Of a stretch of 64,000 nucleotides of DNA, positions 4,846 through 60,205 are shown one piece after another. How positions within the stretch are numbered: position 1 is the first letter of the stretch; every line of letters starts with the position of its first letter. The stretch spans positions 1,054,001 through 1,118,000 of the forward strand of contig NZ_CP087723.1 of assembly GCF_024972735.1 (NCBI RefSeq). The letters run 5' to 3'. The translations under genes were made by a program, and so were the position numbers. Source of the DNA: Halalkaliarchaeum sp. AArc-CO. Lineage in GTDB: Archaea > Halobacteriota > Halobacteria > Halobacteriales > Haloferacaceae. The notes below the pieces were generated by a model. That model had not been told where the DNA came from. It worked only from the letters and a program-made list of their open reading frames with translations, and ran no database searches.

Positions 4846-6188
4846 TCCACCAGTGTGATCATGTTCCCGTTTCTGGTCACGTGCAGGTCACGACCGACCG
4901 CGTACCCCTGTGACTCCGCCAGGTCCACGTAGGGTGCAAAACCCTGGAGGTCCTGGTGAGCGGGGATGACCTGCTGGGGCTGCAGGGCGTCGAGCATCTG
5001 GTAGTGGCCCTCCTCTCGAAGGTGCCCGGAGACGTGGATGTCGTCGTAGATCCGGGCGCCCTGCATCTTCAGCAGGCGTTCGGCCTGGTACCGCTGCCCT
5101 TCGTTCGTCGGTTCCGGGATCACCCGAGCCGAGAAGATGACCTTGTCGCCGTCGTCCAGTTCGTAGGGCGTCTCGCCCCGGGCCATCCGGGTGAGCATCG
5201 CACGCGGTTCGCCCTGGTGGCCGGTTACGACGGGCAGGAAGTCCTCCTTGCCCTCCTTCATGATCCGCTTGAACGTCCGGTCGACGCTCTTGCGGTGGCC
5301 GTACATCCCGAGGTCGCCCGGGAATTCGACGAAGTCGAGCCGTTCTGCGGTCCCGGAGTACTTTTCCATCGACCGACCGAGCAGAACCGGCTTGCGACCG
5401 ATCTCCTCGGCGAACTCCACGAGCGACTTCACCCGGGCAATGTGGCTCGAGAACGTCGTCGCCACGATGCCGCCGTCGTAGTCCTTGATGGACTGGAGCG
5501 TGTCACGCAGGTGGGTCCGGGCGACCGACTCGCTCGCAGTCCGCCCCTTCTGTCCGGCGTTCGTGCAGTCTTCGATGTAGCAGAGCACGCCGTTGTCCTC
5601 CCGGCCGATCTCGCGGAACCGCTCCATGTCGATCGGGTCGCCGATCACTGGCGAATGGTCGATACGCTTGTCGAGCCCGTAGACGATCGAGCCCTCCGGC
5701 GTGTGGAGCACCGGGTTGATCGCGTCGATAACCGAGTGGGTGACGTTGACGAACTCGAGTTCGCACTCCGAGCCGATCGACATCGTCCCGCCGGCGTCCA
5801 TCTTCACCAGGTCGTTGTCGACGCTGAACTTGCTTTCCCCTTTGACCTGTTGTTTCACCAGTTCGATCGTGAACGGGGTCGCGACCACCGGCGCGTTGTA
5901 CCGGTGGGCCAGCTTCGAGATAGCGCCGATGTGATCGAGGTGGCCGTGCGTGGGAACGATCGCCTTCACGTCCCCCTCGAGATCGGACATCACCCGGTCG
6001 TCCGGGATTGCGCCCATGTCGATCAGATCGAGGCTGTGCATCTGCTCTGTCTCCACGTTGTCGTGGATCAGAACCTGCGAGAGGTTCAGGCCCATGTCGA
6101 AGACGACGACGTCCTCGCCTGCACGGACCGCCGTCATCTGGCGCCCGACCTCTTCGTATCCGCCGATTGTTGCGATTTCGATTTCCAT
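4842..6188 (-). CDS. rnj: Ribonuclease J, archaeal beta-CASP family
   Basis: A metallo-beta-lactamase/beta-CASP ribonuclease acting in 5'-3' exonucleolytic RNA decay. The 448-residue length is normal for archaeal RNase J. The zinc motif [10 protein letters not shown] (motif 2) is present, with a later THS and [10 protein letters not shown] segment. Near the end [11 protein letters not shown] and IPAHQD supply the beta-CASP histidines. The frame is open upstream to 6386, but [15 protein letters not shown] at 6188 is the conserved start and is preceded by ggagg at good spacing. The 234-base stretch 6189-6422 upstream shows no other gene. It is cotranscribed with idsA through a 4-base overlap. 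Confidence 0.93.
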
Positions 6189-6422
6189 AGTTTCCTCCAA
6201 TGTCGTACCCGCTGTGGGGGCAACGGCCCCGGCGCGTTCCAACACGTCGGTCGCTGGTCCCCGCTCTGGTCCGACGACGTCGTCGACCTCGCCGGCCAGT
6301 GTCCCGCGGGAGTCGGTATGGGAACCATAACTCGCAGGTGATAAAAAGGCGTGGATTCGTGTTTCCGTCGACAGGTAGGTGAACACCTGTGGTATTCGCG
6401 GACTGGAGAGTTCGATCGGTGA

Positions 6423-7988
6423 CTACTCCAACAGCGACGTTCCAGTCATCGCCGCAGGCCGGTCAAGGCCGGCAAGTTCGAGAATCGTCGGCGCCACGTC
6501 ACACAGTGAGCCGCCCTCCCGGACGCGTCTGCCGCCTGCCCGATCTACAGAGAGCGAGCCGTTCCCCGTTGCGGTCGGCGACAGATACACGAACGGTACA
6601 GGATTGCTGGTGTGTGCGGTGTGGGGATCGGCCGGCGTTCCCATGTCGTCTGCGTTCCCGTGGTCGGCGGTGACGATCGCGTGCCCGCCCGCCGCGTCGA
6701 TCGCCGGAAGGAGGCGTCCCAACCCGTCGTCGACGGCTTCGACGGCCCGGACGGCCGCCTCGAAGTCACCAGTGTGGCCGACCATGTCGGGATTCGCGTA
6801 GTTGAGCACAACCAGGTCCGGATCGTCCGTCTCGATCACCTCGATCGCCTCGTCGGTCACTTCGGCGGCCGACATCTCCGGCTGCGAGTCGTAGGTGGGG
6901 ACGTCTGGGCTTTCAATTATCCGGCGGATCTCGCCGTCGAACTCGACCTCCCGCCCGCCGTTGAGAAAGTACGTCACGTGGGCGTACTTCTCGGACTCGG
7001 CGATCCGTAACTGGGTGCGGCCCGCGTTCGCGAACACCTCCCCGAGGGTCTCTGTCGGCTCCTCGGGCGGGAACGCCACCGGGAACTCGAAGGTGCGATC
7101 GTACTCCGTCATCGTCACGACCGTCGTCTCCGGCGGTTCCGTCTCGAATGGCCAGTCCGGTCGCGTGTCCGAGAGCATCCGGACGAGTTGTCGAGCCCTG
7201 TCTCCCCGGAAGTTGACGAAGACGACCGCGTCGCCGTCCGCGAGCTGCCAGTCTCCCGTTCGGTGATCCGGAGCCCCGGGACGGACGAGGGTCGGCTCGA
7301 CGAACTCGTCTGTGTCTCCCCGGTCGTAGGAGGCCTCCACCGCCTCGACCGCCGAAGCTGCCTCGTGATCTGCTGTTCGGTTGACAATCGCGTCGTAGGC
7401 ACGTTTCGTTCGGTCCCAGTTCTCGTCGCGGTCCATCGCGTAGTAGCGCCCCGAGACTGTGGCGACGTGGCCGGTCTCGGCGTCCTCGATCGTCGATTCG
7501 AGTTTCGACAGGTACTGTGCACCCCCCTTGGGGTCGGTGTCGCGTCCGTCGGTAAACGCGTGGGTGACGGCGGGAACGTCAGCGTCTGCACAGAGGTCGA
7601 CGAGCGCTTCGAAGTGCCGGAGATCCGAGTGGACGCCGCCGTCCGAAACGAGCCCCATCAGGTGGACCGACCCGTCATTCTCGTCGGCTGCCGAGAGGGC
7701 AGCCCGGATCGCCTCGTTCTCGCGGAAGCTTCCGTCGTCGATCGCGTCGTTGATCCGGGTGTACGCCTGTTTCACCACCCGTCCGGCGCCGATGTTGAGG
7801 TGTCCCACCTCGCTGTTTCCCATCTGTCCGTCGGGGAGGCCGACCCGACGTCCCGACACCTCCAGTGTGCCGTACGCCCCGGTGTCGGCGCAGGCGTCGA
7901 AGGTCGGCGTGTCGGCCGCCTTCACGGCGTCGAGCCGGTCGTGATCGCCCAGCCCCCAGCCGTCGAGAATCACGAGCGCAACGTCCAT
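6423..7988 (-). CDS. gpmI: 2,3-bisphosphoglycerate-independent phosphoglycerate mutase
   Basis: Interconverts 3- and 2-phosphoglycerate in glycolysis and gluconeogenesis. The 521 residues fit the bacterial-type iPGM of the alkaline phosphatase superfamily. ALVILDGWGLG at the N-terminus supplies the first metal aspartate. GQMGNSEVGH contains the phospho-acceptor serine (residue 59). TADHGNADDM near residue 455 supplies Mn2+ ligands. The gene is divergent from the XPB helicase gene with 111 bases between starts. A TATA-like box on the minus strand (8016-8007) lies about 24 bases before the ATG and implies a leaderless or very short-leader transcript. Confidence 0.95.
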   Translation of the reverse strand: MDVALVILDGWGLGDHDRLDAVKAADTPTFDACADTGAYGTLEVSGRRVGLPDGQMGNSEVGHLNIGAGRVVKQAYTRINDAIDDGSFRENEAIRAALSAADENDGSVHLMGLVSDGGVHSDLRHFEALVDLCADADVPAVTHAFTDGRDTDPKGGAQYLSKLESTIEDAETGHVATVSGRYYAMDRDENWDRTKRAYDAIVNRTADHEAASAVEAVEASYDRGDTDEFVEPTLVRPGAPDHRTGDWQLADGDAVVFVNFRGDRARQLVRMLSDTRPDWPFETEPPETTVVTMTEYDRTFEFPVAFPPEEPTETLGEVFANAGRTQLRIAESEKYAHVTYFLNGGREVEFDGEIRRIIESPDVPTYDSQPEMSAAEVTDEAIEVIETDDPDLVVLNYANPDMVGHTGDFEAAVRAVEAVDDGLGRLLPAIDAAGGHAIVTADHGNADDMGTPADPHTAHTSNPVPFVYLSPTATGNGSLSVDRAGGRRVREGGSLCDVAPTILELAGLDRPAAMTGTSLLE

Positions 7989-8006
7989 GTCTCCCCCGTA
8001 GGGGGG

Positions 8007-8016
8007 ATATTTTAAG
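8007..8016 (-). promoter_or_regulatory. TATA-like box for gpmI
   Basis: Read on the minus strand this is cttaaaatat, about 24 bases before the gpmI ATG. That is the spacing expected for a haloarchaeal leaderless transcript. Confidence 0.6.
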
Positions 8017-8099
8017 TAGCGTTCGCTCTCGGCTGTGGTTCAGCCCCGGTGTGGCCGCCGGTCGCAACCCGTATCCCGCTCGGCCCCATACGGCCGCCG

Positions 8100-10025
8100 A
8101 TGACCGACGGAGGCGACCCGGCCGCCGAAGGGAACGCCCCCGACAGCGACGCTGACGGGAACGCCCCCGACAGCGACGCCGACGGGAACGCCCCCGACAC
8201 CGATACCGAGGCTGAGGACACACCACTCCAGCTCTCTCGGTTCCTCGACGTCGTCGAGCGCGAAGAGCGTCCCGTAGTGACCGCCCAGCGGGCCGCCCGC
8301 CGACTGGACTGCACCCAGGCACAGGCCCGGGACGCGCTGGACGACCTTGCAACGCGGGGAGAGATCGAACGGGTCGACGTCGAGACCGATCCGGTGGTTT
8401 ACTACCCCACGGAGTGGCGCAAGCTGGCGCGCCGGGAGCGGGTTGTCGTCTTTCCGACACGGAGGGAGATCGTCGTCGATCAGCCCACCCAGTACACCCG
8501 GGCGCAACTGTCGCAGTTCGCCCATCTCGTGGACACGACCGGAACCGAGCCTGGAACCCGCGGCTATCTGTACCGCGTTCGACCCGAGGACGTCTGGGTC
8601 GCGCCGTTCGAGGAGTTCGAACAACTGCTGTCGACGGTCCGATCCGTGCTCCCGCGGCGCTATTCTCACCTCGAAGCGTGGATGAACGACCAGTGGCAAC
8701 GGGCCCACCAGTTCCGGCTGTACACCCACGAGGACGGGTACGTCGTGCTCGAGGCCGCCTCCGAGAGTCTGATGGGCAACGTCGCCACGGAGAAACTCGA
8801 CGAGGATACGATCCGGGCGCCGATTTCCGACACAGAAGCGTGGGTCAACGCCGACCGGATCGCCGGAATCAAGCGGACGCTGTACGACGCCGGCTACCCG
8901 GTGGTCGACGACCGCAAACTGGAGACCGGCGACGGGCTGGACGTCGAACTCACCACTGACCTGCGCGAGTACCAGCACTCGTGGGTCGAGTCGTTCCTCG
9001 AAAAACGGGCAGGGGTGTTCGTCGGCCCGCCCGGCAGCGGGAAAACCGTCGCCGCGATCGCGACGATCACGGCAGTCGAGGGGGAGACGTTAATCCTGGT
9101 CCCCTCCCGCGAACTCGCCGAACAGTGGCGGGAGGAGCTACTGGCACACACGGATCTCTCGCGCGAACAGATCGGCGCGTACCACGGCGGCGAAAAGCGG
9201 ATCCGACCGATCACGATCGCGACCTACCAGACCGCCGGAATGGACAGACATCGCCAACTGTTCGACTCCCGCAAGTGGGGATTGATCGTCTACGACGAAG
9301 TGCACCACGTCCCCAGCGACGTCTACCGCCGCAGCGCGGACCTCCAGGCGGTCCACCGGCTCGGGCTCTCGGCGACCCCGGTCCGGGAGGACGATAGCGA
9401 GGCGGAGATTTTCACGCTGATCGGGCCGCCGATCGGCACCGACTGGGACGCGCTGTTCGAGGCAGGGTTCGTCCAGGAGCCCGAACTCGAGATCCGGTAC
9501 GTCCCGTGGCGCGAGGACACCGCGCGAAACGAGTACACGAGCGCTGACGGCCGGGAGCGGTACCGGCTCGCCGCGCAAAACCCTGCCAAACTGGCCGAAG
9601 TCGAGTACTTGCTCGCCAGACACGACGACCGGAAGGCGCTCGTGTTCGTCGACTACCTCGAGCAGGGCGAGCGGATCGCCGAAGCGCTGTCGGTGCCGTT
9701 CGTCAGCGGCGACACGCCGCATTACCGGCGCGAGCAACTGTTCTCGCAGTTCCGCGAAGGGGAGCGACGGACGCTCGTCGTCTCCCGGATCGCCGACGAG
9801 GGGATCGACCTGCCGGACGCCGAGGTGGCGATCGTGGCGTCGGGGCTGGGCGGGTCCCGCAGACAGGGGGCCCAGCGGGCGGGCCGGACGATGCGCCCGG
9901 CCGGCTCGGCGCTCGTGTTCGTCCTCGCCACCCGGGGGACCCGCGAGGAGGAGTTCGCCAGGCGGCAGCTCCGCCACCTGGCGGGCAAGGGGATCCGCGT
10001 GCGAGAGACGAACGTGAGCGGCTGA
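8100..10025 (+). CDS. XPB/Rad25-family DNA helicase (superfamily 2)
   Basis: A 3'-5' DNA helicase or translocase of the XPB type, likely in DNA repair. Residues 1-40 are an acidic tail containing a tandem repeat. A winged-helix-like and damage-recognition-like region follows to about residue 280. The helicase core then has Walker A GPPGSGKT, DEVH box VYDEVHHVP, motif III GLSATP and motif VI QRAGRTMRP. The R-E-D triad typical of XPB sits just after motif III (ATPVRED). ATG 8100 is chosen over the longer frame from 8049 because the latter adds only atypical residues. The MutS-like ATPase gene follows after 89 bases. No Bax1-type nuclease partner gene is adjacent. Confidence 0.9.
   Translation: MTDGGDPAAEGNAPDSDADGNAPDSDADGNAPDTDTEAEDTPLQLSRFLDVVEREERPVVTAQRAARRLDCTQAQARDALDDLATRGEIERVDVETDPVVYYPTEWRKLARRERVVVFPTRREIVVDQPTQYTRAQLSQFAHLVDTTGTEPGTRGYLYRVRPEDVWVAPFEEFEQLLSTVRSVLPRRYSHLEAWMNDQWQRAHQFRLYTHEDGYVVLEAASESLMGNVATEKLDEDTIRAPISDTEAWVNADRIAGIKRTLYDAGYPVVDDRKLETGDGLDVELTTDLREYQHSWVESFLEKRAGVFVGPPGSGKTVAAIATITAVEGETLILVPSRELAEQWREELLAHTDLSREQIGAYHGGEKRIRPITIATYQTAGMDRHRQLFDSRKWGLIVYDEVHHVPSDVYRRSADLQAVHRLGLSATPVREDDSEAEIFTLIGPPIGTDWDALFEAGFVQEPELEIRYVPWREDTARNEYTSADGRERYRLAAQNPAKLAEVEYLLARHDDRKALVFVDYLEQGERIAEALSVPFVSGDTPHYRREQLFSQFREGERRTLVVSRIADEGIDLPDAEVAIVASGLGGSRRQGAQRAGRTMRPAGSALVFVLATRGTREEEFARRQLRHLAGKGIRVRETNVSG
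8130..8210 (+). repeat. Three 27-base tandem repeats encoding an acidic tail
   Basis: Units at 8130-8156, 8157-8183 and 8184-8210 each encode a nine-residue GNAPDSDAD-like unit. The first two differ by one base and the third has diverged further. They lie in the N-terminal tail of the XPB helicase, where unit number could vary between strains. Confidence 0.85.
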
Positions 10026-10082
10026 GTACCACCTGTGCGGCTGAGCAACGTGACCCGACGGGCACGCGACGGGACAACCGAT

Positions 10083-10090
10083 CTTATAAG
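10083..10090 (+). promoter_or_regulatory. TATA-like box for the MutS-family gene
   Basis: The sequence cttataag lies 25 bases before ATG 10115, so the gene probably has its own leaderless transcript in addition to any readthrough from the helicase gene. Confidence 0.65.
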
Positions 10091-10114
10091 GGGAAACCGC
10101 TCCTCGCCCCGGAC

Positions 10115-11920
10115 ATGCAACTGGAAGCCTACTGGGGCGTCGGGCCGAAGACGCGCGAGCGGCTCGAAGCGGAGCTGGGTGCCGAACGGGCCATCGAGGC
10201 GATCGAGTCGGCGGACATCGGTGCCCTCGTCGACGCGGGGCTCCCCCGGGGGCGCGTGGTGCGGATCCTGCGGCGCGCGAACGCCGACGGCGACGTCGAT
10301 CGGTTCGGCACCTCCGACGCCCGGGACGTCTACGACGACCTGCTGTCGCTTGCAGCGTCGTACGCCCTGACCGAACGGGCGGGCGACCGGATCCGCGTAA
10401 TGACGCCACTTGCGAGCGCCGACGCCCGGCGCGACCGACTCGAGACCGTCGCGGCGGCGCGTGACGCCTGGGTCGGGCTGGACGGGACGGCCCGCAACCG
10501 GGTCGAGGAGGCCTTTTCCGCCTACGACGACGCCGGCGCCACCGACCGGGCGGCCGTCCGTGCGGCGCTTTCGCTTCGGCACGCCGGCTTCCAGGGGCGG
10601 ACGTTCGAGGCGCTCGCCGAACTCGACGAAGGAAAACTCGGCGACGCCGCCGACGCGCTCGGGGCCGTCAGGCTGTCCGACTCTGTCCCGTCAGGGACGT
10701 CGATCGCCGACGCCGATCCCGAATCGCTCGAGGTGCAGTCGGGAACCGACGACCGCCTCGATCGGCTGCGGGAGGAATTGGATGCGGTCGAGGAGCTGGA
10801 GAACGCCGCGTTCGACGTGATTGAGACAGTGCGCGAGCGAGGAGCGCGCGATCTGGAAGCGTTTCAAAGCGGGGTAGTCGAATACGTCGCCAGCGAAACG
10901 GGCCTTTCAACAGGAGAAATCAGGTCCGCCGCACCCGATGACGCTGTCGACGCCTCCGATTACGTGAGCCGGACGCTCCGGGAACTGGTCGATCACCAGC
11001 GCGAACGCGTCACGGAACGGGAACGCGAAATCGCCGCAACGCTGCAGGATGACGTAGCCGCGGCGGGTGAGGACGTCGACGCCGCGATCGCGGCGGTCGA
11101 TGACATCGCCTTCGCGCTCTCGCTGGGGCGGTTCGCGGCCGCACACGACCTCCGAGAGCCGACGCTGGTCGACGAGGCGGTCCTTGCGGTCTCGAACGCA
11201 CGGAACCTTTTTCTCTCGGGTGAGGTCCAACCCGTCACGTACGCAATCGGGACGCACGACCTCGGGGAGTCCGGGGGAACTGGCGCGGAGGCCCCGCCGT
11301 CCGGGGATCGGGTCGCCGTCCTCACCGGTGCCAACTCCGGCGGGAAGACGACGCTTCTGGAGACGCTGTGTCAGGTGACGCTGCTTGCCGACATGGGGCT
11401 CCCGGTACCGGCCGAGCAGGCGACGGTCGGGCGCTTCGACACCGTCGTCTTCCATCGCCGGCATGCATCCTTCAACGCGGGCGTGCTGGAGTCGACACTC
11501 AAAAGCATCGTCCCACCGCTGTCGGACAACGATCGCACGCTGATGCTCGTCGACGAGTTCGAGGCGATCACCGAACCCGGACGGGCCGCGGACCTTTTGA
11601 ACGGCCTGGTCGAGCTCACTGTGTCCCGTGACGCGCTCGGAGTGTACGTTACTCACCTCGCAGACGACCTCAGCCCACTTCCCGAGGCCGCACGCGTCGA
11701 CGGAATCTTCGCCCGGGGACTGACGCCGGACCTCGAACTCGAGGTGGACTACCAGCCCCAGTTCGGAACGATCGGCAAGTCGACCCCGGAGTTCATCGTC
11801 TCGCGGCTGGTTGCGAACGCCCGTGATCGGGCCGCACGACAGGGATTCGAGAAACTCGCCGAAGCCGTCGGCGAGGAGGCAGTCCAGCGCACGCTGTCGG
11901 ATGCGCGGTGGGAGGGATAA
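10115..11920 (+). CDS. MutS-family ATPase with N-terminal helix-hairpin-helix
   Basis: A 601-residue MutS-related protein. Residues 1-50 look like a helix-hairpin-helix DNA-binding unit (AYWGVGPKTRERLEAELG). The middle is long and helical, like the MutS clamp and lever. The C-terminal ATPase has Walker A GANSGGKTT, a Walker B-like LMLVDEFEA and a late VYVTH. The N-terminal mismatch-binding domain of MutS1 is absent, so it is closer to the MutS-like proteins that act outside classical mismatch repair. With the upstream XPB helicase it forms a likely DNA-repair pair. Whether it binds mismatches, junctions or other structures is not shown by the sequence. Confidence 0.85.
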   Translation: MQLEAYWGVGPKTRERLEAELGAERAIEAIESADIGALVDAGLPRGRVVRILRRANADGDVDRFGTSDARDVYDDLLSLAASYALTERAGDRIRVMTPLASADARRDRLETVAAARDAWVGLDGTARNRVEEAFSAYDDAGATDRAAVRAALSLRHAGFQGRTFEALAELDEGKLGDAADALGAVRLSDSVPSGTSIADADPESLEVQSGTDDRLDRLREELDAVEELENAAFDVIETVRERGARDLEAFQSGVVEYVASETGLSTGEIRSAAPDDAVDASDYVSRTLRELVDHQRERVTEREREIAATLQDDVAAAGEDVDAAIAAVDDIAFALSLGRFAAAHDLREPTLVDEAVLAVSNARNLFLSGEVQPVTYAIGTHDLGESGGTGAEAPPSGDRVAVLTGANSGGKTTLLETLCQVTLLADMGLPVPAEQATVGRFDTVVFHRRHASFNAGVLESTLKSIVPPLSDNDRTLMLVDEFEAITEPGRAADLLNGLVELTVSRDALGVYVTHLADDLSPLPEAARVDGIFARGLTPDLELEVDYQPQFGTIGKSTPEFIVSRLVANARDRAARQGFEKLAEAVGEEAVQRTLSDARWEG

Positions 11921-11949
11921 AATCGACGTCGAAACCGGAGTCGACCGCG

Positions 11950-12369
11950 CTATTCGTCGCCGGTTGCGCCGTCGAGCACGATCGTCACCGTCTCGTCTTC
12001 GTCCTCTTCGAGGGTGACGGTTTCCTCGACAGGTTCGAACTCGTCTTCGAGGCTCTCAACTGTGATCCTGTACTCGCCTTCGTAGATGAGGCTCGCCCCG
12101 GAGAGTTCGCCGCCCTGAATGTCGTGCTGGAAGGTGGCGCTGAAGTTTTCCTCGAGGCTTTCGATCGTGACGACCACGCCCGTCGAGACCGGTTCCCCGT
12201 CCTCGTTTTCGAGCTGGACGGTGAGGTCGCCGGGATTATCGAGATCGAACTCGTGGTCGTCCCCGGCGTCATCGCCGTTTTCGTCGCCTGTACAGCCGGC
12301 GAGACCGGCAACACTGAGGGCAGCGATGCTTGCACCGAAGCGTCGGCGGGACACTGATTGGAGGTTCAC
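11950..12369 (-). CDS. Tat lipoprotein with carboxypeptidase-regulatory-like domain
   Basis: A 139-residue secreted lipoprotein. The N-terminus has a twin-arginine signal (SRRRFGASIAALSVAGLAGC) ending in a lipobox whose Cys is residue 26. A short acidic linker follows, then a single beta-rich domain with a G-E-P-V-x-x-G-V pattern, as in carboxypeptidase regulatory-like or prealbumin-like folds. The mature protein is strongly acidic and probably anchored outside the membrane. It is convergent with the MutS-family gene (29-base gap) and divergent from the K+ channel gene. Its function is unknown. Confidence 0.75.
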   Translation of the reverse strand: MNLQSVSRRRFGASIAALSVAGLAGCTGDENGDDAGDDHEFDLDNPGDLTVQLENEDGEPVSTGVVVTIESLEENFSATFQHDIQGGELSGASLIYEGEYRITVESLEDEFEPVEETVTLEEDEDETVTIVLDGATGDE

Positions 12370-12534
12370 GTCCGGAGCAAATCGATCGTCACTGATGAAC
12401 GTTCAGATTTGTCGGCTCATCGTTCGATGGTAACTGAACCCAACCGTTGGTCGTGATCGAGTAACACGATAGGCCGACGGTGCTGCCATTCCCTCCTCGA
12501 ACTGACTGGTTCCGGATCGATCCGGAAGCACACC

Positions 12535-12542
12535 TATTTATA
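12535..12542 (+). promoter_or_regulatory. TATA-like box for the K+ channel gene
   Basis: The sequence tatttata lies 25 bases before ATG 12567. It supports that start over the longer frame beginning at 12480. Confidence 0.65.
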
Positions 12543-12566
12543 CGCTCACCTGCCGAGAGCCCGGAT

Positions 12567-13742
12567 ATGGAGTGGACCCGCGAGTGGCTGTCGGTGCGTG
12601 CGGCAGTACTGCTCACGTTCCTCGTGGGGGTGCTGTCGATCGTCGTTGGGCTCGTTCACATCGCTACCGGCGGTGTCGAGGGCCCGCTCGTGGAGTACGT
12701 GCCCCCGATCGTCCGACAGACGGTCGGCTTTACCGGCACCATTACCGGCTTCGTGATGCTGCTGGGAGCGTTTGCCCTCGCCCGCGGCTACCGGCTCGGC
12801 TGGTACGCGACGATCGTGTTGCTCCCGGTGACGGCCGCCCAGGGACTGTTACAGACGTCGCCGTTCGCCTATCCACTTGTTGTACTGTCAGCGCTTGCTG
12901 TCCCTGCACTCGTGTACAACCGCCGTCGGTTCAGACGGCCGTTTACTCCCTCGCCAACCCAGCTTGCGGCGGCGACGGCGCTCGTGACGGCGCTTCTGTA
13001 CGGCACACTGGGCTCGTATGCGTTGCGCGACGAGTTCGAGGGAATCGTCACTATCACCGACGCGTTCTACTACACGGTCGTCACCGCGAGCACCGTCGGC
13101 TATGGCGACGTCCACGCGACGACGGAAATCAGCCGGCTGTTCAGCCTCTCTGTGTTGATCTTGAACGTTTCGGCGTTTGCAGTCGCCCTCGGTGTCCTGC
13201 TTACGCCCGCCATCGAAGCGCAACTCTCGAAAGCACTTGGAAGAATGACAGAAACACAGTTCGAACTCCTGGAAGATCACGTCCTCGTGCTCGGATACGG
13301 GGAACTGACGGAACCGATACTCGAAGAACTCGCCGACGCGGACGACATCGAGTTCGTCGTCGTTACGCCCGAAGAGAACCGCACCCGGCAACTCTCCGCA
13401 CGGGATATCTCGGTGTTGACCGCGGATCCGAGCGACGAGGAGCCGCTACAGCAGGTACGGATCGGGACCGCCAGGGCTGTGTTGGTGGCGACGAACAACG
13501 ACGCCGAGGACGCGCTCGCGATCCTCACCGCCCGGCAGCTCAACCCAGAGGTGCGGATCGTCGCTGCGGCGACACAGCGGGAGAACGTCGACAAACTCCG
13601 CCGGGCCGGCGCGGACGAGGTGTTGAGCCCCGCCGCAATCGGCGGTCATCTCCTCGTGGAGTCGGCGCTCGGCACCGACGACACGGAACGACTGGTCGCC
13701 GATATTCTCGGTGACTCTGTCGAACCGGACAGTTCTGAATAG
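12567..13742 (+). CDS. Two-pore-helix K+ channel with RCK (TrkA-N) domain
   Basis: A 391-residue membrane channel. Several hydrophobic helices occupy residues 10-120. A typical ion-channel unit follows with the selectivity filter TVGYGD at residues 176-181. After the last helix a cytoplasmic RCK/TrkA-N domain begins (HVLVLGYGELTEP) with a dinucleotide-binding glycine motif. It resembles MthK- and Kef-type channels whose gating is set by a ligand such as Ca2+ or a nucleotide; the ligand here is unknown. Extra N-terminal helices beyond the basic 2TM pore are a difference from MthK. The stop codon abuts the stop of the convergent phosphorylase gene with no spacer. Confidence 0.88.
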   Translation: MEWTREWLSVRAAVLLTFLVGVLSIVVGLVHIATGGVEGPLVEYVPPIVRQTVGFTGTITGFVMLLGAFALARGYRLGWYATIVLLPVTAAQGLLQTSPFAYPLVVLSALAVPALVYNRRRFRRPFTPSPTQLAAATALVTALLYGTLGSYALRDEFEGIVTITDAFYYTVVTASTVGYGDVHATTEISRLFSLSVLILNVSAFAVALGVLLTPAIEAQLSKALGRMTETQFELLEDHVLVLGYGELTEPILEELADADDIEFVVVTPEENRTRQLSARDISVLTADPSDEEPLQQVRIGTARAVLVATNNDAEDALAILTARQLNPEVRIVAAATQRENVDKLRRAGADEVLSPAAIGGHLLVESALGTDDTERLVADILGDSVEPDSSE

Positions 13743-14468
13743 TCACAACTCGGTCGCGGCCTCGAGCGTGAGCCGGATCGCACGTTCGACGTTGTCCTTG
13801 GCCTTTTCGGGGAGCTCCTCGCCGTCAGTCGCTCCCTTTTGAGTCCCCTCGACGAGGTTGCCGTCGACGGTGCAGATCGCGCCCGCAGCGAGTCCCTTCC
13901 TGCGGGCGAGAGAGAACACTGCCGCCGCTTCCATCTCGATCGCGAGCAGGCCGGCGTTCTCCCAATCGTCGACGAAGTCGTCGGACTCGTTGTAGAAGGC
14001 GTCGTCGGAGACGATCGGCCCGACGTGGACGTCTTCGTCGTTCGCCTCCGCCGCGTCGACCAGCGCCGTGAGCGCGTCGTAATCGGGTACTGCCGGATAC
14101 ACCGCCGACTCGTAGCGCTTGCTGGTGCCCTCCTCCTTGGCGGCGCCGGTGGCGACCACCATGTCGCCGATTTCGATGCCCTCCTGGAGGGCGCCCGTGG
14201 TGCCACACCGGAGGAACGTCTCGACGCCGACCCTGGAGAGTTCCTCGAGGGCGATGGCGGCGGAGGGACAGCCGATCCCGGTCGAACAGATCGTCACCGG
14301 ACGGCCCTCGTAGGTGGCGTTGACGACCTTGTACTCCCGATTCTGTGAGATCTCTTCGACGTTTTCACACTGTCTTGCGATCCGATCGACGCGCCCCGGA
14401 TCGCCGGGAATGATGGCGAGGTCGGTTACGTCGCCCTCCTCGACGAGCAGGTGCGGCTGTTTGGCCAT
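13743..14468 (-). CDS. udp: Uridine phosphorylase-type nucleoside phosphorylase
   Basis: A 241-residue enzyme of the PNP/UDP family that cleaves the N-glycosidic bond of (probably pyrimidine) nucleosides with phosphate. GDPGRVDRIA gives the N-terminal phosphate-binding loop. STGIGCPSAAIALEEL and GTTGALQ follow, and AIEMEAAAVFSLA supplies the ribose-contacting Met-Glu. Length is typical for the hexameric family. Uridine versus purine preference cannot be settled without the base-specificity loop being aligned. It is convergent with the K+ channel gene and 72 bases from the truB stop on the same strand. Confidence 0.88.
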   Translation of the reverse strand: MAKQPHLLVEEGDVTDLAIIPGDPGRVDRIARQCENVEEISQNREYKVVNATYEGRPVTICSTGIGCPSAAIALEELSRVGVETFLRCGTTGALQEGIEIGDMVVATGAAKEEGTSKRYESAVYPAVPDYDALTALVDAAEANDEDVHVGPIVSDDAFYNESDDFVDDWENAGLLAIEMEAAAVFSLARRKGLAAGAICTVDGNLVEGTQKGATDGEELPEKAKDNVERAIRLTLEAATEL

Positions 14469-14540
14469 ACGTGGGACTCGCCCGTGTCGACCAAAAACCT
14501 GTGCGATACGCAGTCACCGTCCGGAGCGAACCGAGGCGGT

Positions 14541-15542
14541 TCACACGAGCACGCGCTCGAGATCGACGACTGTTCCCTGCTCCGCGTCGGGGTCGCCGAC
14601 AGGACGGCCGAGACACACTGCGGTCCCTTCCGGCGTGAAACACGCCACGAGAGGTGCGTCGTCGGGACCGGCGTCCAGGGCCGCGTATATCTCCTCGTCC
14701 GCGGAGATCACCCCCGGTGCGTACACCGGTGCGCCGTTGGCGACCTCCCTGGCGGCGGATTCGGCGATCGTCACGGTCGGGAGATGCGAGATCGCTCGTT
14801 CGGCCGGCTGAACGACGGTTCGGAGCTGTTCTGTGTGACCCTCTTTTGCCCACTCCAGTGCGTCCACGAGGTCGTGGAGGGTGATCAGTGAGGCGTCGTC
14901 GAACGGGGTGGTTGCGGTCCGGCGGAGGTCGCCCATGTGCGCGCCGGTGCCCAGCGCGAGCCCGAGGTCGTGACACAGCTTCCGAATGTACGTCCCCGAC
15001 TCACACCGGATCCGGAGGAGGGCACGGCGTTCTCGAGTTTCGAGTACTTCCAGTTCGTACACTTCTCGAACACGCAGGCGGCGGGCGACGGCGCTTTTCC
15101 GCGGGGGTTTCTGGTACAGCGGCGCCTCGAAGGAGGCGACGATTCCTTCGAGGTCCGCCGGCGCCGGCCGGTGGAGTTCCAGCACGGCGACGTACTCTTT
15201 TCCTCCCTCGAGGAACGCCTGCGCGAGGCGGGTTGCCTCGCCGGTCAACACCGGGAGACAGCCGGTCACTTTCGGATCGAGAGTGCCGGCGTGTGCGGCC
15301 TCCGAGATCCTGCCTGCTCTTCCGTCGCCGACATCGTCGGCAGCCGTCGTCAGGTCGCCGACCGCGTCGTCGGCGAGATCCCGAACCCAGGCGGCGACCT
15401 GGTGGGCCGACGGCCCGGGTGGTTTATCCAGGTTGACGACGCCGAACCGGAGCAGCTCCGGAAGGCTCCGTTGTTCCGGTGGCGACCGGAGGATCCCGTC
15501 TCCGGCTCTCGTTTCGTCGGCGGTGGCGTCCTCGTCGTGCAT
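14541..15542 (-). CDS. truB: RNA pseudouridine synthase TruB/Cbf5
   Basis: Archaeal Cbf5-type pseudouridine synthase, the catalytic subunit of H/ACA guide RNPs, which can also act on tRNA U55. The catalytic aspartate is in HAGTLDPKVTG. The substrate-binding segments LYQKPPRKSAV and CESGTYIRKL are present. The C-terminal 80 residues form a PUA domain (residues about 250-325). The 333-residue length includes a haloarchaeal insertion of about 20 residues before the catalytic loop. It starts 10 bases after the cmk stop, so cmk-truB is an operon, an arrangement common in haloarchaea. Confidence 0.93.
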   Translation of the reverse strand: MHDEDATADETRAGDGILRSPPEQRSLPELLRFGVVNLDKPPGPSAHQVAAWVRDLADDAVGDLTTAADDVGDGRAGRISEAAHAGTLDPKVTGCLPVLTGEATRLAQAFLEGGKEYVAVLELHRPAPADLEGIVASFEAPLYQKPPRKSAVARRLRVREVYELEVLETRERRALLRIRCESGTYIRKLCHDLGLALGTGAHMGDLRRTATTPFDDASLITLHDLVDALEWAKEGHTEQLRTVVQPAERAISHLPTVTIAESAAREVANGAPVYAPGVISADEEIYAALDAGPDDAPLVACFTPEGTAVCLGRPVGDPDAEQGTVVDLERVLV

Positions 15543-15552
15543 TGTTCTTCCC

Positions 15553-16131
15553 TCAAAAGTCGTAGACGACGTTCTCGACCGGGGCCTTCCCCTCGTCGCT
15601 GTCTGGATCGTACGAGTCGATGGCCGTCGTCAACATGCCCAGAACCCCCTCCGGGCTCCACCGCGCGGTGTTGTACGCGATGTCGTAGATGGTGAGGTCG
15701 TGGATGTCGATGTTGTAATACTCTGCGTAGCGTTTCGCCTCGCTTTTTTCCCTGCGGGCGGTCTCCTGCCGGGCGAGATCGACGGCTTTCTCCTCGCGGT
15801 CGGCGATCCGCTCGGCCCGAACCGACAGGGGTGCATCGAGCCACACCTTCAGGTCGGCGTGTTCGCCGGCGAGCCAGCCGGCGAGCCGCGACTCCAGCAG
15901 GACGTCGTCCCGTTCGATCGCGATCGATCTGAGTCGGCGGTCCAGCTCCCTGTCGATCGTATCGTCGTCCTCGGCGTGTTCGTTGAACTCCACGGGAGTC
16001 ATCCCCCGTTCGGCGGCCATCTCCCGGAAGATGTCCCCTCCGGAGACGTGTTCGAGGTCGAACGCGTCCGCCAGGGCGGCGGCGGTCGTGCTCTTGCCGC
16101 TGCCCGGCGGACCGGAGACGGTCAGTAACAT
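15553..16131 (-). CDS. cmk: Cytidylate kinase (archaeal AAA-type fold)
   Basis: Phosphorylates CMP and dCMP with ATP. The 192-residue protein starts with the P-loop [16 protein letters not shown]. It has [12 protein letters not shown] as the NMP-binding segment and [10 protein letters not shown] and RAERIADRE as later family signatures. ATG 16131 is preferred because the P-loop normally sits at the extreme N-terminus; the frame is open upstream but that part includes the tandem repeat of the intergenic region. It is the first gene of the cmk-truB operon. Confidence 0.92.
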
Positions 16132-16165
16132 ATCGGTCGTGCGCCCCTCGCGGTAAAAGGCGTTG

Positions 16166-16232
16166 TCGTTCGTCGGTGCCAGGGGTAGGTCGTTCGTCGG
16201 TGCCAGAGGAACGTCGTTCGTCCCTCCTGGCG
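16166..16232 (+). repeat. 24-base imperfect tandem repeat in a divergent promoter region
   Basis: Units begin at 16166, 16190 and 16214, each opening with tcgttcgt; the first two share tcgttcgtcggtgccag. They lie in the 144-base divergent space between cmk and the acetyltransferase gene. They could be repeated binding sites or simple slippage. Confidence 0.7.
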
Positions 16233-16275
16233 ACAGTGGGGGTAACTTCTTGGCGCCGTCGACAGACGCTAACGC

Positions 16276-17538
16276 ATGGTCGAATTTCGTCGCGTTCCGG
16301 AAGCGCGGGCACGCGAGTACGAGGCGATCCTCAGCCACGCCTTCGAAATCGAATCCGGGCCCGCCAGTGGCGACGACGTCGAACGTTCCGACGGCACCTC
16401 CGATTCCGAGGACTGGCCACCCGACCTGTACGAGCCCTGGGGGTTGTTCGACGGCGACACGCTCGTCAGCGTCTGTAAACTGTACTACCTGGACGCCTAC
16501 CTCCACGACGGGTTCGGGACGATCGGCGGGTTGGGCGGCGTCGCCACCCCTCCAGAACACCGCCGGCAAGGGTACGTGCGCCAGTTGTTGCGATCGGTGC
16601 TGCGGGAGTACCGCGAGGCGGACGTCGACGCCGTGACGCTGTGGCCCTTTTCAGTCCCGTTCTATCGGAACCACGGCTGGGGGATCGCGAACAAATACAC
16701 GACTTACGAGCTACCGCCCGAACAGCTCGCGTTCGAAAGCGGGAGGGAGGGAACTGTCCGCCGGCTCGGCGCCGACGACTGGACGCGGCTCCGATCGGTC
16801 GAGGTCGCGTTCGGCACCGGCACCGCCCTGTCGCTGCGCCGGTCTGAGCGCTGGTGGCGCGACCGAACGCTGTCGGCCTGGAGCGGCCGCGGGGAGCCAT
16901 ACGTGTACGGATACGAACGGAACGGCGAGCTCCGGGGGTACGTGCTGTACACCGTCGAAAGAAACGACGAAGGTGACCGAACCCTCCGGGTGACCGACCT
17001 CGCGCACGCCGACGACGACGCCTATCGAGGACTGCTCGGATTCCTTGCGGATCACGACTCGCAAGTGACGACCGTACAGCTTCCACGCGCCGAGGAGACC
17101 GAACTGCTCGACCGCGTTAGGCAGCCGAGCGAGGTCGACTGCACCGTGTCGGTGGGGCCGATGATCAGACTCGCGGACGTCCAGTCTGCGCTGCGGGACT
17201 ACCCCTGGCCGGCCGGACTCGACGTTCAGTTCACGCTCGGTATCTCGGATCCGCTCGTGGAGCGAAACGACGGGGCCTTCGCGATCGATCTTGCCGAGGA
17301 CACTGCGTCCGTCCGCGCCATTGACGCCATCGACGACGGCCACGCCGACCCCTCTGCTGTGGCCGGACCGGCGGACGTCGAGATGGACGTTTCCACGCTG
17401 TCGCGGCTGTACGTCGGAAGCGTCTCCCTCGGGGATGCAGAGCGGTTCGGCAGCTGTGTGATCCATCGGTCCGAGGTCGAAGATCCGTTGGGGATCGCGT
17501 TCCCACCGAGATCCGTGTGTCTCCGCGAGTTCTTCTGA
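16276..17538 (+). CDS. Eis-like GNAT N-acetyltransferase
   Basis: A 420-residue acetyltransferase with the layout of Eis proteins: tandem GNAT folds followed by a C-terminal SCP2-like domain. The acetyl-CoA pyrophosphate loop is visible as [18 protein letters not shown] (about residues 92-109). The second half contains a [12 protein letters not shown] segment as in SCP2-type domains. The protein ends in a free carboxyl Phe-Phe (LREFF), and in Eis family members the terminal carboxylate takes part in catalysis. The substrate is unknown. No signal peptide is seen. It is monocistronic and divergent from cmk. Confidence 0.8.
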
Positions 17539-54907: not shown

Positions 54908-55954
54908 CTATCGAACCGCCTGGAGAACTCGTTCCGCGAGGATTTCGTACTGTTCGAGGCCGACGTCCTTTTCGACGTAGTCGGTGACGTCGTCCAGGAT
55001 CGCCCGCTTTGCCACCTCCTCGCTCCCCTGGCCCGTATAAAGGATGAACGGAAGCTCCGGATAGCGCTCGCGGGCCTCCTTCAGGAACTCGATCCCGTCC
55101 ATCCCCGGCATCTGGTAGTCGCTGACGATACAGTCGACTCCCGGATCACCGTCCGCCCCGTCCGAGAGGACGTCCAGTCCTCCTGCGGCGCTGGACACGG
55201 ACGTGGTCGAAAACCGGTCGGACTGCTGTTTCAAGAACAGCTCCGCCATCTCCAGGTCGTGTGGATCATCGTCGACCAGGAGGAGTTCGATCGTTCCCTC
55301 CCGCTCCGAGGCGTATCCGATCGCGTCGGTCGACAGTAGATCCGCCCGGAGGTATCGTCCGAAGAGATTGAGACTCCGGAACGACGGCATGCTGACGCTC
55401 GTTTTGGTGACTCGCCCGTCGGTTTCGGCGTAGATGACGACGACCGGTTTCCGATCGTTCCCGTCGAAGATGTCTGCCGGCGTTTTGAACTCGGTGACGT
55501 CGTCCCTGCGGATGACGATCGGCTCGTCCTCGTCGCGTTCCAGCCGGATCGTGGAGGCAGTGACGACCAACCGGAACGCTCGGGATCGGGATTCCGATTC
55601 GCCGACGCTGTGGCGGTGCTTGGCGACGACTTCGGTCCCGTTTAGCAACTGCTGATAGAGGAGTCGCTGGAACTTGACCAGCGTCTCCACGTCGGCGCTA
55701 AGCGAGGCGGTGGCCCGGCGTCCCTCCGCCCGAAACGCGAGCGTGACGGTTCCGGTCGTGCCCGCGTCGGTTCGGGGCGAGACTCCCTGTACGATGTCGA
55801 AGACGTCCGAGAGGGGGATCGCCCGTTTCGTCCCGTCGGCGGCGAACCCGATCTTCTCGTCTGTCACGACGACCCGGGCTCGGCCGGCCGCCTCTTCCCC
55901 CCAGTTGCTCAGTTCGACATCGGCCCGGAAGTCCGCGACGATAGATCCTGTCAA
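54908..55954 (-). CDS. CheF-like protein fused to a response-regulator receiver
   Basis: A 348-residue fusion. Residues 1-215 resemble the archaeal taxis adaptor CheF (SIVADFRADVELS, AADGTKRAIPLSDVFDIVQG, LLNGTEVVAKH). Residues 222-348 are a complete receiver: acidic pocket LLLVDDDPHD, phosphoacceptor Asp about residue 279 in VSDYQMPGMDG, and conserved Lys about 329 in DYVEKD. CheF normally links chemotaxis signalling to the archaellum switch, so the fusion may take a phospho-signal directly to it. TTG 55954 is a tentative start: it lies about 28 bases from a TATA-like element at 55985-55979. The only in-frame ATG is at 56053. It is divergent from the histidine kinase gene. Confidence 0.7.
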   Translation of the reverse strand: MTGSIVADFRADVELSNWGEEAAGRARVVVTDEKIGFAADGTKRAIPLSDVFDIVQGVSPRTDAGTTGTVTLAFRAEGRRATASLSADVETLVKFQRLLYQQLLNGTEVVAKHRHSVGESESRSRAFRLVVTASTIRLERDEDEPIVIRRDDVTEFKTPADIFDGNDRKPVVVIYAETDGRVTKTSVSMPSFRSLNLFGRYLRADLLSTDAIGYASEREGTIELLLVDDDPHDLEMAELFLKQQSDRFSTTSVSSAAGGLDVLSDGADGDPGVDCIVSDYQMPGMDGIEFLKEARERYPELPFILYTGQGSEEVAKRAILDDVTDYVEKDVGLEQYEILAERVLQAVR

Positions 55955-56088
55955 CGTAATCGGGACTCTACGACCGAGAATAATGAGTGTTTCTCCATTC
56001 GAGCCGAGAGACCAGCAACCGGACGGACGGTGCAAATCTGTCAGCGGAACCAAAAGTTATTGGAGACGGCTCCGCGTATCGGATCGAT

Positions 56089-57258
56089 ATGACTTCGCCG
56101 GTCCGCGTGTTGTACGTCGGAAACGACGGGGAGGGACGCTCCGTGGTCGAGAGGTCCCTCGAGGGAGTAGATTCGGAGATCGAAATCCGCGAGGAACCCG
56201 ACGCGGAATCGGCGCTCTCTCGCCTGGTCGGTGGTTCCGGTACCGTCGACTGCGTCGTCAGCGCCTACCACCTGCCGGGCATCGACGGGATCGAGTTCCG
56301 TCGGGAACTGGACCGGCGATCCCCGGCAGCGTCCGTTCCGTTCGTCTTGCTCGTCGCTGACGGATCCGAGGGGATCGCCGCGGAGGCGCTCAACGCCGGT
56401 GTGACGGGGTACGTCCGACGGGACGCTCCGGGTTCAGTTCGTCGTCTCGAAGGGTGTTTCCGACGCGAAGTCGGCTCCGTTCGGCCGACCGACGATCGCG
56501 ACGCGGTAGAGCCCTTCGGCGACTGTCGCGCCCAACTCCAGTGGGAGCAGGAACGCATCGAAGAGATCAGGCGGGTCGTTTCCCACGACCTCCGGAGCCC
56601 GCTGAACGTCGCGAAGGGGTATCTCCAGCACGTGTCGGACGGAACTGGCAGTCTCGGCGAGAGTGACGGGAAACACGACGAGTCGATTCGGCGGGCGATC
56701 GCAGCACTGGATCGTCTCGAATCGTTTTTCGACGACCTGAACGCGCTCGTCCGGCAGGGGACGCCGGTCGAGAACGCCGAACATCTGGATCTGGCGTCGG
56801 TCGCCCGATCGGCCTGGGAGGAAACCGACGACTGGGCGAGGATCGACGAGGGCACCGAATCTCCGGGGGCAACCCTCCACACATCCGGGGGGCTCGCCGA
56901 ACTGGAGGCCGTCGTTGCCGACCCCGAGCGCCTCCGTGGGCTGTTCCGGGAACTGTATCAAAATGCGATCGAACACGGCGATCCGCCGGTGACGATCGAG
57001 ATCGGCGTACTCCCCGACGGATTTTACGTCGCGGACGACGGGACGGGGATCCCCGAAAACAGGCGGGATGACGTGCTTGAGGCGGGGGTGTCCGATCGCC
57101 GGAAACAGACGGGATTCGGGCTGGCGGCGGTGCGACACATCGCGACCGCTCACGGGTGGGAACTGTCGGTCACAGAGAGTGCAACCGGTGGAGCACGATT
57201 CGAGTTACGGGGCGTCACCCGGGAGGGAAAAAGCGACGGTCCCGGAGAACCGAGGTAG
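56089..57258 (+). CDS. Histidine kinase with an N-terminal degenerate receiver
   Basis: A 389-residue protein without membrane helices. Residues 4-120 have a receiver fold, but the phosphoacceptor position is Ala59 (VVSAYHLPGIDG), the acidic pocket is reduced (YVGNDGEG) and the conserved Lys is replaced by Arg (YVRRDA). It therefore cannot be phosphorylated in the usual way. The HisKA domain has VVSHDLRSPLNVAKGYL with His166. The HATPase has an N-box (ELYQNAIEHGD), G1 (VADDGTGIPENR) and G2 (KQTGFGLAAVRHIA). The start is supported by TATA-like ttattgg (56057-56063). It is divergent from the CheF-receiver fusion, which has an intact receiver, so the two may be partners. Confidence 0.85.
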   Translation: MTSPVRVLYVGNDGEGRSVVERSLEGVDSEIEIREEPDAESALSRLVGGSGTVDCVVSAYHLPGIDGIEFRRELDRRSPAASVPFVLLVADGSEGIAAEALNAGVTGYVRRDAPGSVRRLEGCFRREVGSVRPTDDRDAVEPFGDCRAQLQWEQERIEEIRRVVSHDLRSPLNVAKGYLQHVSDGTGSLGESDGKHDESIRRAIAALDRLESFFDDLNALVRQGTPVENAEHLDLASVARSAWEETDDWARIDEGTESPGATLHTSGGLAELEAVVADPERLRGLFRELYQNAIEHGDPPVTIEIGVLPDGFYVADDGTGIPENRRDDVLEAGVSDRRKQTGFGLAAVRHIATAHGWELSVTESATGGARFELRGVTREGKSDGPGEPR

Positions 57259-57676: not shown

Positions 57677-58327
57677 TCACGCCTGCTCCCAGGAGAGGTC
57701 GATCGGGAGGTCCGCTCGGAGAAGCTCCGCCACGTGGCAGGTTCGCTCGCCGACCGTCACGATGCGTTCGAGGACGGCCTCCTCGAGAGACTGGTCGCCC
57801 GGGTCGAGGTGCACCTGGAGGGCTATCGACTCGACGGAGCCGTCAGTGGGGGTCGCGGCGGCGTCGACGGAGACGCCGGCGAGTTCGACGTTCCGGATGT
57901 CTGCCTGGACGGCGATCGAGACGGCGAGACACGAGGCGAGTCCCCCGAGGAACAGATCGACAGGCGAGGGGGCGGTCCCTCCGTCGAGGTCGTCGCCGGA
58001 GTCGATCCGCCAGGCGAACGACCCAGCCGTCACCGTTCCCGCGTAGTCGGAGTCGACGTCGGCGGTGACGGCTCTCTCGGGGACGGTCGGTTCCTCCTTC
58101 GACCCGACGATCGCGAGCGCCGAGCCAGGACCTGCCGATTCGTCCTCGCTCAGGAGGCGATGGGTGAGGGTCCCGTCGACGGGTGCGGTGATCGTGCGTT
58201 CGGTTCCGTCGATCGCGAGGTCGACGATCGGATCGCCCGCCGAAAGGGAGTCGCCGACGGCAGCGACCCATTCGCGTACCGTCGCGGGCGTTCCGTCTGT
58301 AGGCGGGATCTCGACGAGGTGAGCCAT
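57677..58327 (-). CDS. Lipoyl-like domain fused to an OsmC-type peroxidase domain
   Basis: A 216-residue fusion. Residues 1-78 look like a biotinyl/lipoyl domain (EIPPTDGTPATVREWVAAVG, TAPVDGTLTHRLL). The lysine that normally carries the cofactor, expected in a D-K-A turn, is absent: the turn reads IDGTERT. Residues 85-216 are OsmC-like with its two redox cysteines, Cys133 in GLASCLAVSI and Cys197 in GERTCHVAEL. OsmC proteins reduce organic hydroperoxides, with electrons often coming from lipoylated proteins. The N-terminal domain may be a docking mimic. It is convergent with the cyclophilin-like gene. Confidence 0.8.
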   Translation of the reverse strand: MAHLVEIPPTDGTPATVREWVAAVGDSLSAGDPIVDLAIDGTERTITAPVDGTLTHRLLSEDESAGPGSALAIVGSKEEPTVPERAVTADVDSDYAGTVTAGSFAWRIDSGDDLDGGTAPSPVDLFLGGLASCLAVSIAVQADIRNVELAGVSVDAAATPTDGSVESIALQVHLDPGDQSLEEAVLERIVTVGERTCHVAELLRADLPIDLSWEQA

Positions 58328-59421: not shown

Positions 59422-59564
59422 GGGAGACGTCATCTCTAAGCGGCTCTGTGGATGGCCACGGTAGACATAGGCCCCAGGCAGAGTCAACAACCACTACACC
59501 GAGCCGGACGCGTGCGACCGACAGCAAGAGCACTCCCGAACCACGGCCGAAGATTGATGAGTGC

Positions 59565-59572
59565 GTATATCC
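59565..59572 (+). promoter_or_regulatory. TATA-like box for vapBC
   Basis: The sequence gtatatcc is about 21 bases before ATG 59586. A second AT-rich gtatacgg follows directly and could contribute to autoregulation by VapB-VapC binding. Confidence 0.5.
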
Positions 59573-59585
59573 GAGTATACGGTAT

Positions 59586-59816
59586 ATGAGCAAATCGGTT
59601 CGTCTCTCCGAGGAGTTCCACGAGTTCGTGAAGGCTCACAAGCGCGAAAACGAAACGATGGAAGAGACGCTCCGCCGGCTCATCGGGGGACCGCATCCCG
59701 AGGACGTCGCCGGAATACTCTCGTCAGAAACGGCGACGGAAATGCGAAATCGGCTCGAAAACAAGCGCAAGACCGATGCCGAAGCAAAGCACAGGCTCCG
59801 GGAGCGGTTCGAGTGA
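59586..59816 (+). CDS. vapB: VapB-type antitoxin
   Basis: A 76-residue protein. KSVRLSEEFHEFVKAHKREN is an N-terminal ribbon-helix-helix-like DNA-binding segment. ETMEETLRRLIGG and a charged C-terminal tail (LENKRKTDAEAKHRLRERF) would wrap the toxin. Haloarchaeal antitoxins of this kind are carried as a DUF in databases. It overlaps vapC by four bases (GTGA), typical of this toxin-antitoxin type. Confidence 0.82.
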   Translation: MSKSVRLSEEFHEFVKAHKRENETMEETLRRLIGGPHPEDVAGILSSETATEMRNRLENKRKTDAEAKHRLRERFE

Positions 59817-60205
59817 TCCTCGATACGTCGTTTCTGATCGACCTCTTCGACGGTCGCGAGGAGGCCTTCGAGAAAGGCGTCGAACTCTCCGAGACGAAGA
59901 CCGTTCAGCGGGTTCCATCACCGGTCGTCATGGAGCTTTCGTACGGTGCCGAGTTCGGCGATGAAAACGAACGCAGGAACGTCAGGAACGCGCTGCGGAT
60001 GTATCCGGTGGTCGAACAGACCGAGACGATCGCTCATCGCGCCGGACAGTTGCTCGCGCAGGCCGACCAGCAGGCGGAGGGTGAAAGCGGCATCGACAAA
60101 GTCGATCCGATGGTTGCAGCAGTCTCGGACATCTACGACGAACCCGTCCTCACAGCGAATATCGAGCACTTCGGCAGGCTCGGTGTCCAAGTGGAGTCGT
60201 ACTGA
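59813..60205 (+). CDS. vapC: VapC-type PIN-domain toxin ribonuclease
   Basis: A 130-residue PIN domain starting at GTG. The acidic active site is visible: Asp4 in ILDTSFLIDL, Glu41 in VVMELSYGAE and Asp98 in VDPMVAAVS. A residue near 116 (TANIEHF) replaces the fourth Asp with Asn. PIN toxins cut tRNA or rRNA under stress when VapB is degraded. It follows vapB directly. Confidence 0.88.
   Translation: MILDTSFLIDLFDGREEAFEKGVELSETKTVQRVPSPVVMELSYGAEFGDENERRNVRNALRMYPVVEQTETIAHRAGQLLAQADQQAEGESGIDKVDPMVAAVSDIYDEPVLTANIEHFGRLGVQVESY

Follow-up and report, generated by a model that had tools for sequence, protein, structure and literature searches.

In the literature examined, the archaeal taxis signal reaches the archaellum through CheA, phosphorylated CheY (CheY-P) and the C-terminal domain of CheF (PF04283, DUF439), the archaeal chemotaxis adaptor. 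According to the available text of PMC9126983, the CheF homodimer depends on this domain, as does the binding of CheY-P, and the H. volcanii CheF devoid of it keeps its localisation. A 2009 paper, the accessible part of which does not mention a receiver, reported for Haloarcula marismortui two additional CheF paralogues encoded away from the che region. Other described proteins close to those presented here are the archaeal response regulators, formed by a receiver (REC) and an output domain (census PMC5847659); the haloarchaeal REC-HisK kinases, in which up to 40% of the receivers might not be phosphorylated (PMC5847659, available part); and the aspartate-less receivers, which account for up to 10% of the archaeal receivers in the accessible text of the survey PMC4395418. 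No description of a CheF-receiver fusion was found in the available portions of the open-licence literature searched (including PMC2666748, PMC5847659, PMC9126983, PMC7824242, PMC6944256 and PMC4395418), and the main text of the response-regulator census PMC5847659 contains none of the terms CheF, DUF439 and PF04283.

We analysed a stretch of 64,000 nucleotides (the window) from Halalkaliarchaeum sp. AArc-CO, a haloarchaeon with a genome of 3.18 Mb. It contains a gene that joins a CheF-like module to a receiver, and a divergent gene encoding a histidine kinase (Table 1). We propose that these two genes probably constitute a two-component system that uses the fold of an archaellum adaptor as the output domain of its response regulator.

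Table 1. Features of the CheF-receiver locus (positions in the window)
Feature	Position	Strand	Details
CheF-receiver fusion gene	54908..55954	-	348 aa, TTG start
CheF-like tandem PH module, residues 1-206	55337..55954	-	Pfam CheF-arch residues 6-204; 7OVP Z 15.6, 203 residues
Intact receiver, residues 222-348, where CheF has its C-terminal domain	54911..55291	-	Response_reg 64.9 bits; D228, D229, D279, T307, K329
Phosphoacceptor Asp279 of the fusion	55118..55120	-	
Intergenic region between the divergent genes	55955..56088	.	134 bp between the two starts
Partner kinase gene, receiver-HisKA-HATPase	56089..57258	+	389 aa, no PAS or GAF domain; ATG 56089
Aspartate-less receiver, residues 1-128	56089..56472	+	
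Ala59 at the phosphoacceptor position	56263..56265	+	
HisKA domain with His166	56575..56760	+	Pfam; H-box
HATPase_c domain	56920..57207	+	Pfam; N and G1 boxes

The initial annotation had described the left protein as a CheF-like adaptor joined to an intact receiver, and the domain searches agreed with this description: residues 6-204 reached 92.7 bits against Pfam CheF-arch (cut-off 25) and residues 225-335 reached 64.9 bits against Response_reg. The phosphoacceptor is Asp279, the residue named in the initial annotation, when the protein is counted from the TTG at 55954, and Asp228, Asp229, Thr307 and Lys329 are all present. This start agrees with the homologues, and a TATA-like element is located approximately 28 nt upstream of it. 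The element GAAACACTCATTATTC (55978-55993, minus strand), upstream of the fusion gene, resembles GAAACAATCATAAT, which is similarly placed in several relatives, and, judging from the sequence, would fit a leaderless promoter. The genes flanking the locus encode a FAD/Fe-S oxidase and a cyclophilin-like protein, and no motility gene was found among its neighbours; the canonical cheF genes are about 1.8 Mb away, so the fusion gene lies outside the chemotaxis region. Elsewhere in the window we observed a protein in which an N-terminal biotin/lipoyl-attachment-like domain precedes an OsmC domain (57677-58327, minus strand), and a PIN-domain toxin gene accompanied by a gene for a VapB-like antitoxin that scored below the Pfam cut-off (59448-60205, plus strand).

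Given that the CheF part is only 24-27% identical in sequence to the pair of canonical CheF proteins encoded in the same genome (about 24-35% to the canonical paralogues), we carried out a comparison of folds. The AF2 model of the fusion, built from nine aligned sequences, had a moderate mean pLDDT of 73. The best Foldseek match of this model was the CheF crystal structure 7OVP (E 9e-9), which also ranked first in the VIA comparison (Z 15.6, rmsd 3.6 over 203 residues), where residues 5-245 of the model were aligned with residues 2-257 of a chain of 340; few rows of the VIA list stand for the PH part, and families outside that list carry no conclusion. A comparison of residues 1-215 with the CheF structure had been set beforehand as the test that could refute the initial annotation, and 7OVP was the top match in both analyses. 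Since the match stops at residue 257 of 340, the two PH domains of CheF are matched and its C-terminal domain is not. In the model, a helix (192-206) and a low-confidence linker are followed by the receiver from about residue 222, directly after the PH module; thus, according to the model and the comparison with 7OVP, the C-terminal domain of CheF is absent from the fusion and the receiver takes its position. A sequence search of the PDB with the profile of the CheF part gave no matches at E values up to 10, and a search with the whole fusion gave nothing but receivers among the best 60 of 210 matches. A canonical CheF of the same genome (L048, 10089-10958) retains the C-terminal domain, as indicated by the similarity of its residues 203-285 to 7OVP and 7OD9 (E about 1e-12); the choice of this protein as the main one of the two canonical CheF proteins rests on that similarity. 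Therefore, the fusion is like CheF in having the tandem PH fold, by sequence and by structure, but differs from it in carrying a receiver in place of the domain for dimerisation and CheY-P binding, and in being encoded outside the che cluster.

To establish how widespread this architecture is, we compared it with several sets of genomes. A search of 170 genomes of the family with the CheF part returned long relatives that stood out clearly as a group, with 39-53% identity, in seven other genomes. The profile of the whole fusion identified full-length fusions in 12 of 391 genomes of the class (13 loci), delimited by a gap in E value from 4e-106 to 2e-50 beyond which receivers alone match; in 344 genomes across the phylum it detected five fusion genomes, all of them already present in the class search. 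No CheF match was obtained in the phage collection. In total, 19 CheF-receiver loci were found in haloarchaea (Natronomonas, Halorubrum, Haloplanus, Salinibaculum and others): the window, L039-L044, L045 and L046 counted as one, L047, L066, L069, L070, L104-L109 and L116, with L113 left out. The carriers include Natronomonas aquatica, a Natronomonas MAG, Halorubrum kocurii, H. yunnanense, Halorubrum sp. Atlit-26R, Salinibaculum sp. KK48, a Haloplanus MAG, Halorubrum sp. PV6 and H. ezzemoulense; the products of the plasmid copies of the last two are annotated merely as 'response regulator'. The genome of PV6 bears two copies of the fusion, one in the chromosome (L042) and one in a plasmid (L043), the latter adjoining a TnpB-family gene. 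At L113 (5630-6925) and L047 (7645-8714) the CheF part and the receiver are in different frames, which represents either a pseudogene or a sequencing error.

The CheF domains of 17 fusions formed one clade (100/99), separate from 24 canonical CheF proteins, in a tree that excluded L046 (the gene is cut by the end of the contig), L047 and L113 (both with frameshifts) and L116 (identified afterwards). The fusion receivers also formed a single clade (100/100), placed among the receivers of haloarchaeal REC-kinases. Since both domains behave as one clade, it is simplest to assume a single fusion event. Two genomes of one genus also contained CheF paralogues that lack a receiver, are very divergent and lie on a long branch (L111, 5675-6556; L112, 5473-6498).

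All 17 fusion receivers compared retain D228, D229, D279, T307, Y326 and K329. In their helix alpha-1, which forms the kinase-docking face of other receivers, conservation is 0.91, compared with 0.62 in the aspartate-less receivers of the partner kinases. The fusion thus resembles the archaeal response regulators (PMC5847659) in its complete phosphoacceptor site, in the position of its receiver among those of haloarchaeal REC-kinases and in having a kinase gene next to it in most lineages; it differs from them in that its output domain is CheF-like and its receiver is C-terminal.

A HisKA kinase is encoded by the next-door gene in 13 of the 19 loci, arranged head to head in 11 of them (window, L039, L044, L046, L066, L104-L108 and L116) and tail to tail in two (L069 and L109). 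The input modules of these kinases are diverse: the kinases of the window, L039, L046, L066 and L104-L107 have a receiver without the acceptor Asp (dead receiver) alone, that of L044 has a dead receiver together with GAF and PAS domains, that of L116 (H. ezzemoulense) an intact receiver with PAS domains, that of L108 no receiver, and those of L069 and L109 a 7TM-PAS-GAF arrangement. The other six loci (L040-L043, L047 and L070), all from Halorubrum or related organisms, have no adjacent HisKA kinase, which indicates that the pairing is not obligate and that another kinase may serve. At L070 (1759-5362), FIST_N and FIST_C are encoded in two overlapping frames beside a GAF-PAS-HATPase kinase, oriented away from the fusion gene.

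The profile of the window kinase gave six full-length matches in the 391 genomes (E 9e-138 or better; the following match, 1e-87). All six directly adjoin a fusion, and their genomes are within the 12 that carry it (P 2e-10, with relatedness ignored); the whole genome of the window has only 11 HisKA matches. In the kinase tree, from which c_L053 was dropped for being too short, the kinases of the window group were monophyletic (100/99), and the L108 kinase was their sister (97/94); the corresponding fusions grouped likewise, less firmly. The low-GC pair of a Halorubrum (G202) was placed with Natronomonas in both the CheF and the kinase trees, suggesting that the fusion and the kinase moved as a unit. 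The recurrence of the fusion at 19 loci as one clade, together with the conservation of the pair, shows that the arrangement is real and not the product of chance.

The partner kinase had been described as a receiver with Ala59 and without the Lys, joined to an intact kinase, and this held: Pfam recognised Response_reg (37.2 bits, residues 8-110), HisKA (32.8 bits, 163-224) and HATPase_c (54.7 bits, 278-373), and the H, N and G boxes are kept (SHDLRSP, NAIEHG and DDGTGIP). The receiver has lost more residues of the site than previously stated, given that not only is Asp replaced by Ala59 and Lys by Arg, but the acidic pair is replaced by Gly11 and Asn12, and Thr by Val. Among nine aspartate-less partner receivers, the position of D279 is occupied by Ala (seven) or Gly (two), that of D228 by Gly in all nine, that of T307 by Val or Gly, and that of K329 by Arg (eight) or Asp (one). 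The equivalent of Asp279 was kept in 33 of 34 other haloarchaeal receivers drawn from the same searches; in the 13 control receivers compared first it was present in 12, with Glu in the remaining one. The Ala and Gly groups, which may have arisen once or separately, are apart in the tree of kinase domains and have long branches in the receiver tree. The window kinase shares with the haloarchaeal REC-HisK kinases the order N-terminal receiver, HisKA, HATPase, as well as a loss of Asp already known in that group from the accessible part of PMC5847659, but it lacks PAS and GAF domains and has a conserved divergent CheF-receiver neighbour. Likewise, the Ala or Gly in place of Asp is a trait of the aspartate-less receivers in the available text of PMC4395418, from which the partner receiver differs in having also lost the acidic pair, Thr and Lys.

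In three close relatives, dN/dS was 0.22-0.29 for the dead receiver, 0.21-0.39 for the kinase part, 0.15-0.22 for the CheF part and 0.08-0.15 for the CheF receiver; hence, the dead receiver is under purifying selection. Its best-conserved parts are beta-3, beta-4, alpha-4 and beta-5 (0.82-0.86), and its fold was predicted at modest confidence in a kinase model of low mean pLDDT (62). The predicted fold and the selection make a docking or input role reasonable, and this domain, as the only input module of the window kinase, may bind a protein or a ligand. The initial annotation had suggested such a ligand or docking function for the dead receiver; the selection leaves this possible, but dead receivers were also present in all four compact receiver-kinases without a CheF neighbour that we looked at, one partner kinase keeps Asp and another has no receiver. 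The idea that the loss of Asp is peculiar to the CheF partners was rejected, since those four kinases (L124-L127) have Ala, Gly, Glu and Val; as a hallmark of the link with CheF it is also contradicted by the partner of H. ezzemoulense, which retains Asp. The four proteins (L124, 3567-4664; L125, 3092-4261; L126, 3064-4155; L127, 3225-4340; genomes G260, G049, G072 and G013) are compact receiver-HisKA kinases without PAS, and perhaps represent a wider haloarchaeal class of dead-receiver kinases.

Regarding the link with motility, each of the 14 fusion genomes searched encodes Arch_fla_DE and the CheA dimerisation domain, and has two or more canonical CheF genes. In a sample of the class, CheF was found in 181 of 292 genomes and in all nine fusion genomes included there, an association modestly beyond chance (P 0.013). 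In the megaplasmid of H. ezzemoulense Fb21, the fusion gene is located between a divergent REC-PAS-HisKA kinase gene and a methyl-accepting chemotaxis (MCP) gene, with a second MCP gene nearby. An island of this megaplasmid (L117, NZ_CP034941.1 465000-492000, positions 388-16610) carries several PAS/GAF histidine kinases, two MCP genes and a CheF-receiver gene, and looks like a mobile sensory set.

We give about an even chance to the possibility that these proteins provide the archaellum motor with a two-component line of its own, bypassing CheA and CheY, in which the adaptor is its own response regulator and interchangeable kinases (dead-receiver, PAS-GAF or seven-transmembrane) feed inputs to the switch. 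The kinase is predicted to autophosphorylate at His166, from which the phosphate would pass to Asp279 of the CheF-receiver protein. As has been suggested for CheF itself, the PH domains of the fusion would bind to ArlCDE, the switch complex of the archaellum; there, the phosphorylated receiver would alter the state of the PH module and supply in cis what CheY-P and the C-terminal domain supply in trans. Because the receiver replaces this domain, phosphorylation of the fusion itself, probably through receiver dimerisation, would substitute for the binding of CheY-P. The outcome would be a motor signal (reversal, stop or bias) produced without CheA and CheY. A route to the switch outside CheA-CheY had been suggested in the initial annotation, and it stands as the best reading of a protein that has a phosphorylatable receiver instead of the CheY-P-binding domain, a kinase adjacent in most lineages, and an archaellum, CheA and canonical CheF in every carrier searched; the effect on the motor itself is something that we infer. 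The six loci without an adjacent HisKA kinase, the distance of the window locus from the canonical cheF genes, the lack of a motility gene among its neighbours, the modest strength of the association with canonical CheF and the moderate to low mean pLDDT of the two models count against this line to the motor.

The same absence of the C-terminal domain, in genomes that encode canonical CheF alongside, would also be expected if the fusion were a competitor or brake that sits at the CheF site and leaves motors unresponsive to CheY-P, with phosphorylation tuning the amount bound. We consider this rather unlikely; these data fit an active switch as well, and the strictly kept receiver suggests control by phosphate under either reading. 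The loci without an adjacent kinase, and the MCP gene adjoining the fusion in H. ezzemoulense, are what would be seen if CheA or another kinase phosphorylated the fusion and the adjacent kinase were non-cognate. This seems quite improbable, given the adjacency at 13 of 19 loci, which involves several kinase subfamilies, and the position of the window-type kinases beside a fusion in six of six cases.

It is also unlikely that the tandem PH domains came to serve a different target, in a system unrelated to swimming. Such a recruitment would agree with the remoteness of the window locus from the che genes, with the low identity of the CheF part to its canonical paralogues and with the nature of PH domains as general protein-binding platforms; however, the archaellum, CheA and canonical CheF genes of all 14 carriers searched, the MCP neighbour on one plasmid and the first rank of 7OVP in both fold comparisons argue against it. 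Finally, the frameshifts in two relatives (L047 and L113) could be taken to mean that the pair is a decaying remnant without function, but the dN/dS values (0.08-0.39 in all four domains) and the catalytic residues, which all 17 of the compared fusions keep intact, make this extremely improbable.

On the reading of a dedicated line to the motor, the fusion is a response regulator with an archaellum adaptor as its output, a variant on the known response regulators. It would also put naturally to the test the idea that CheF docks through its PH domains and switches through its C-terminal part, and deletion and point mutation of such genes are feasible in genetically tractable haloarchaea. If such a line to the motor exists, a CheF that has a receiver instead of its listening domain would enable ordinary sensor kinases to signal to the motor directly.
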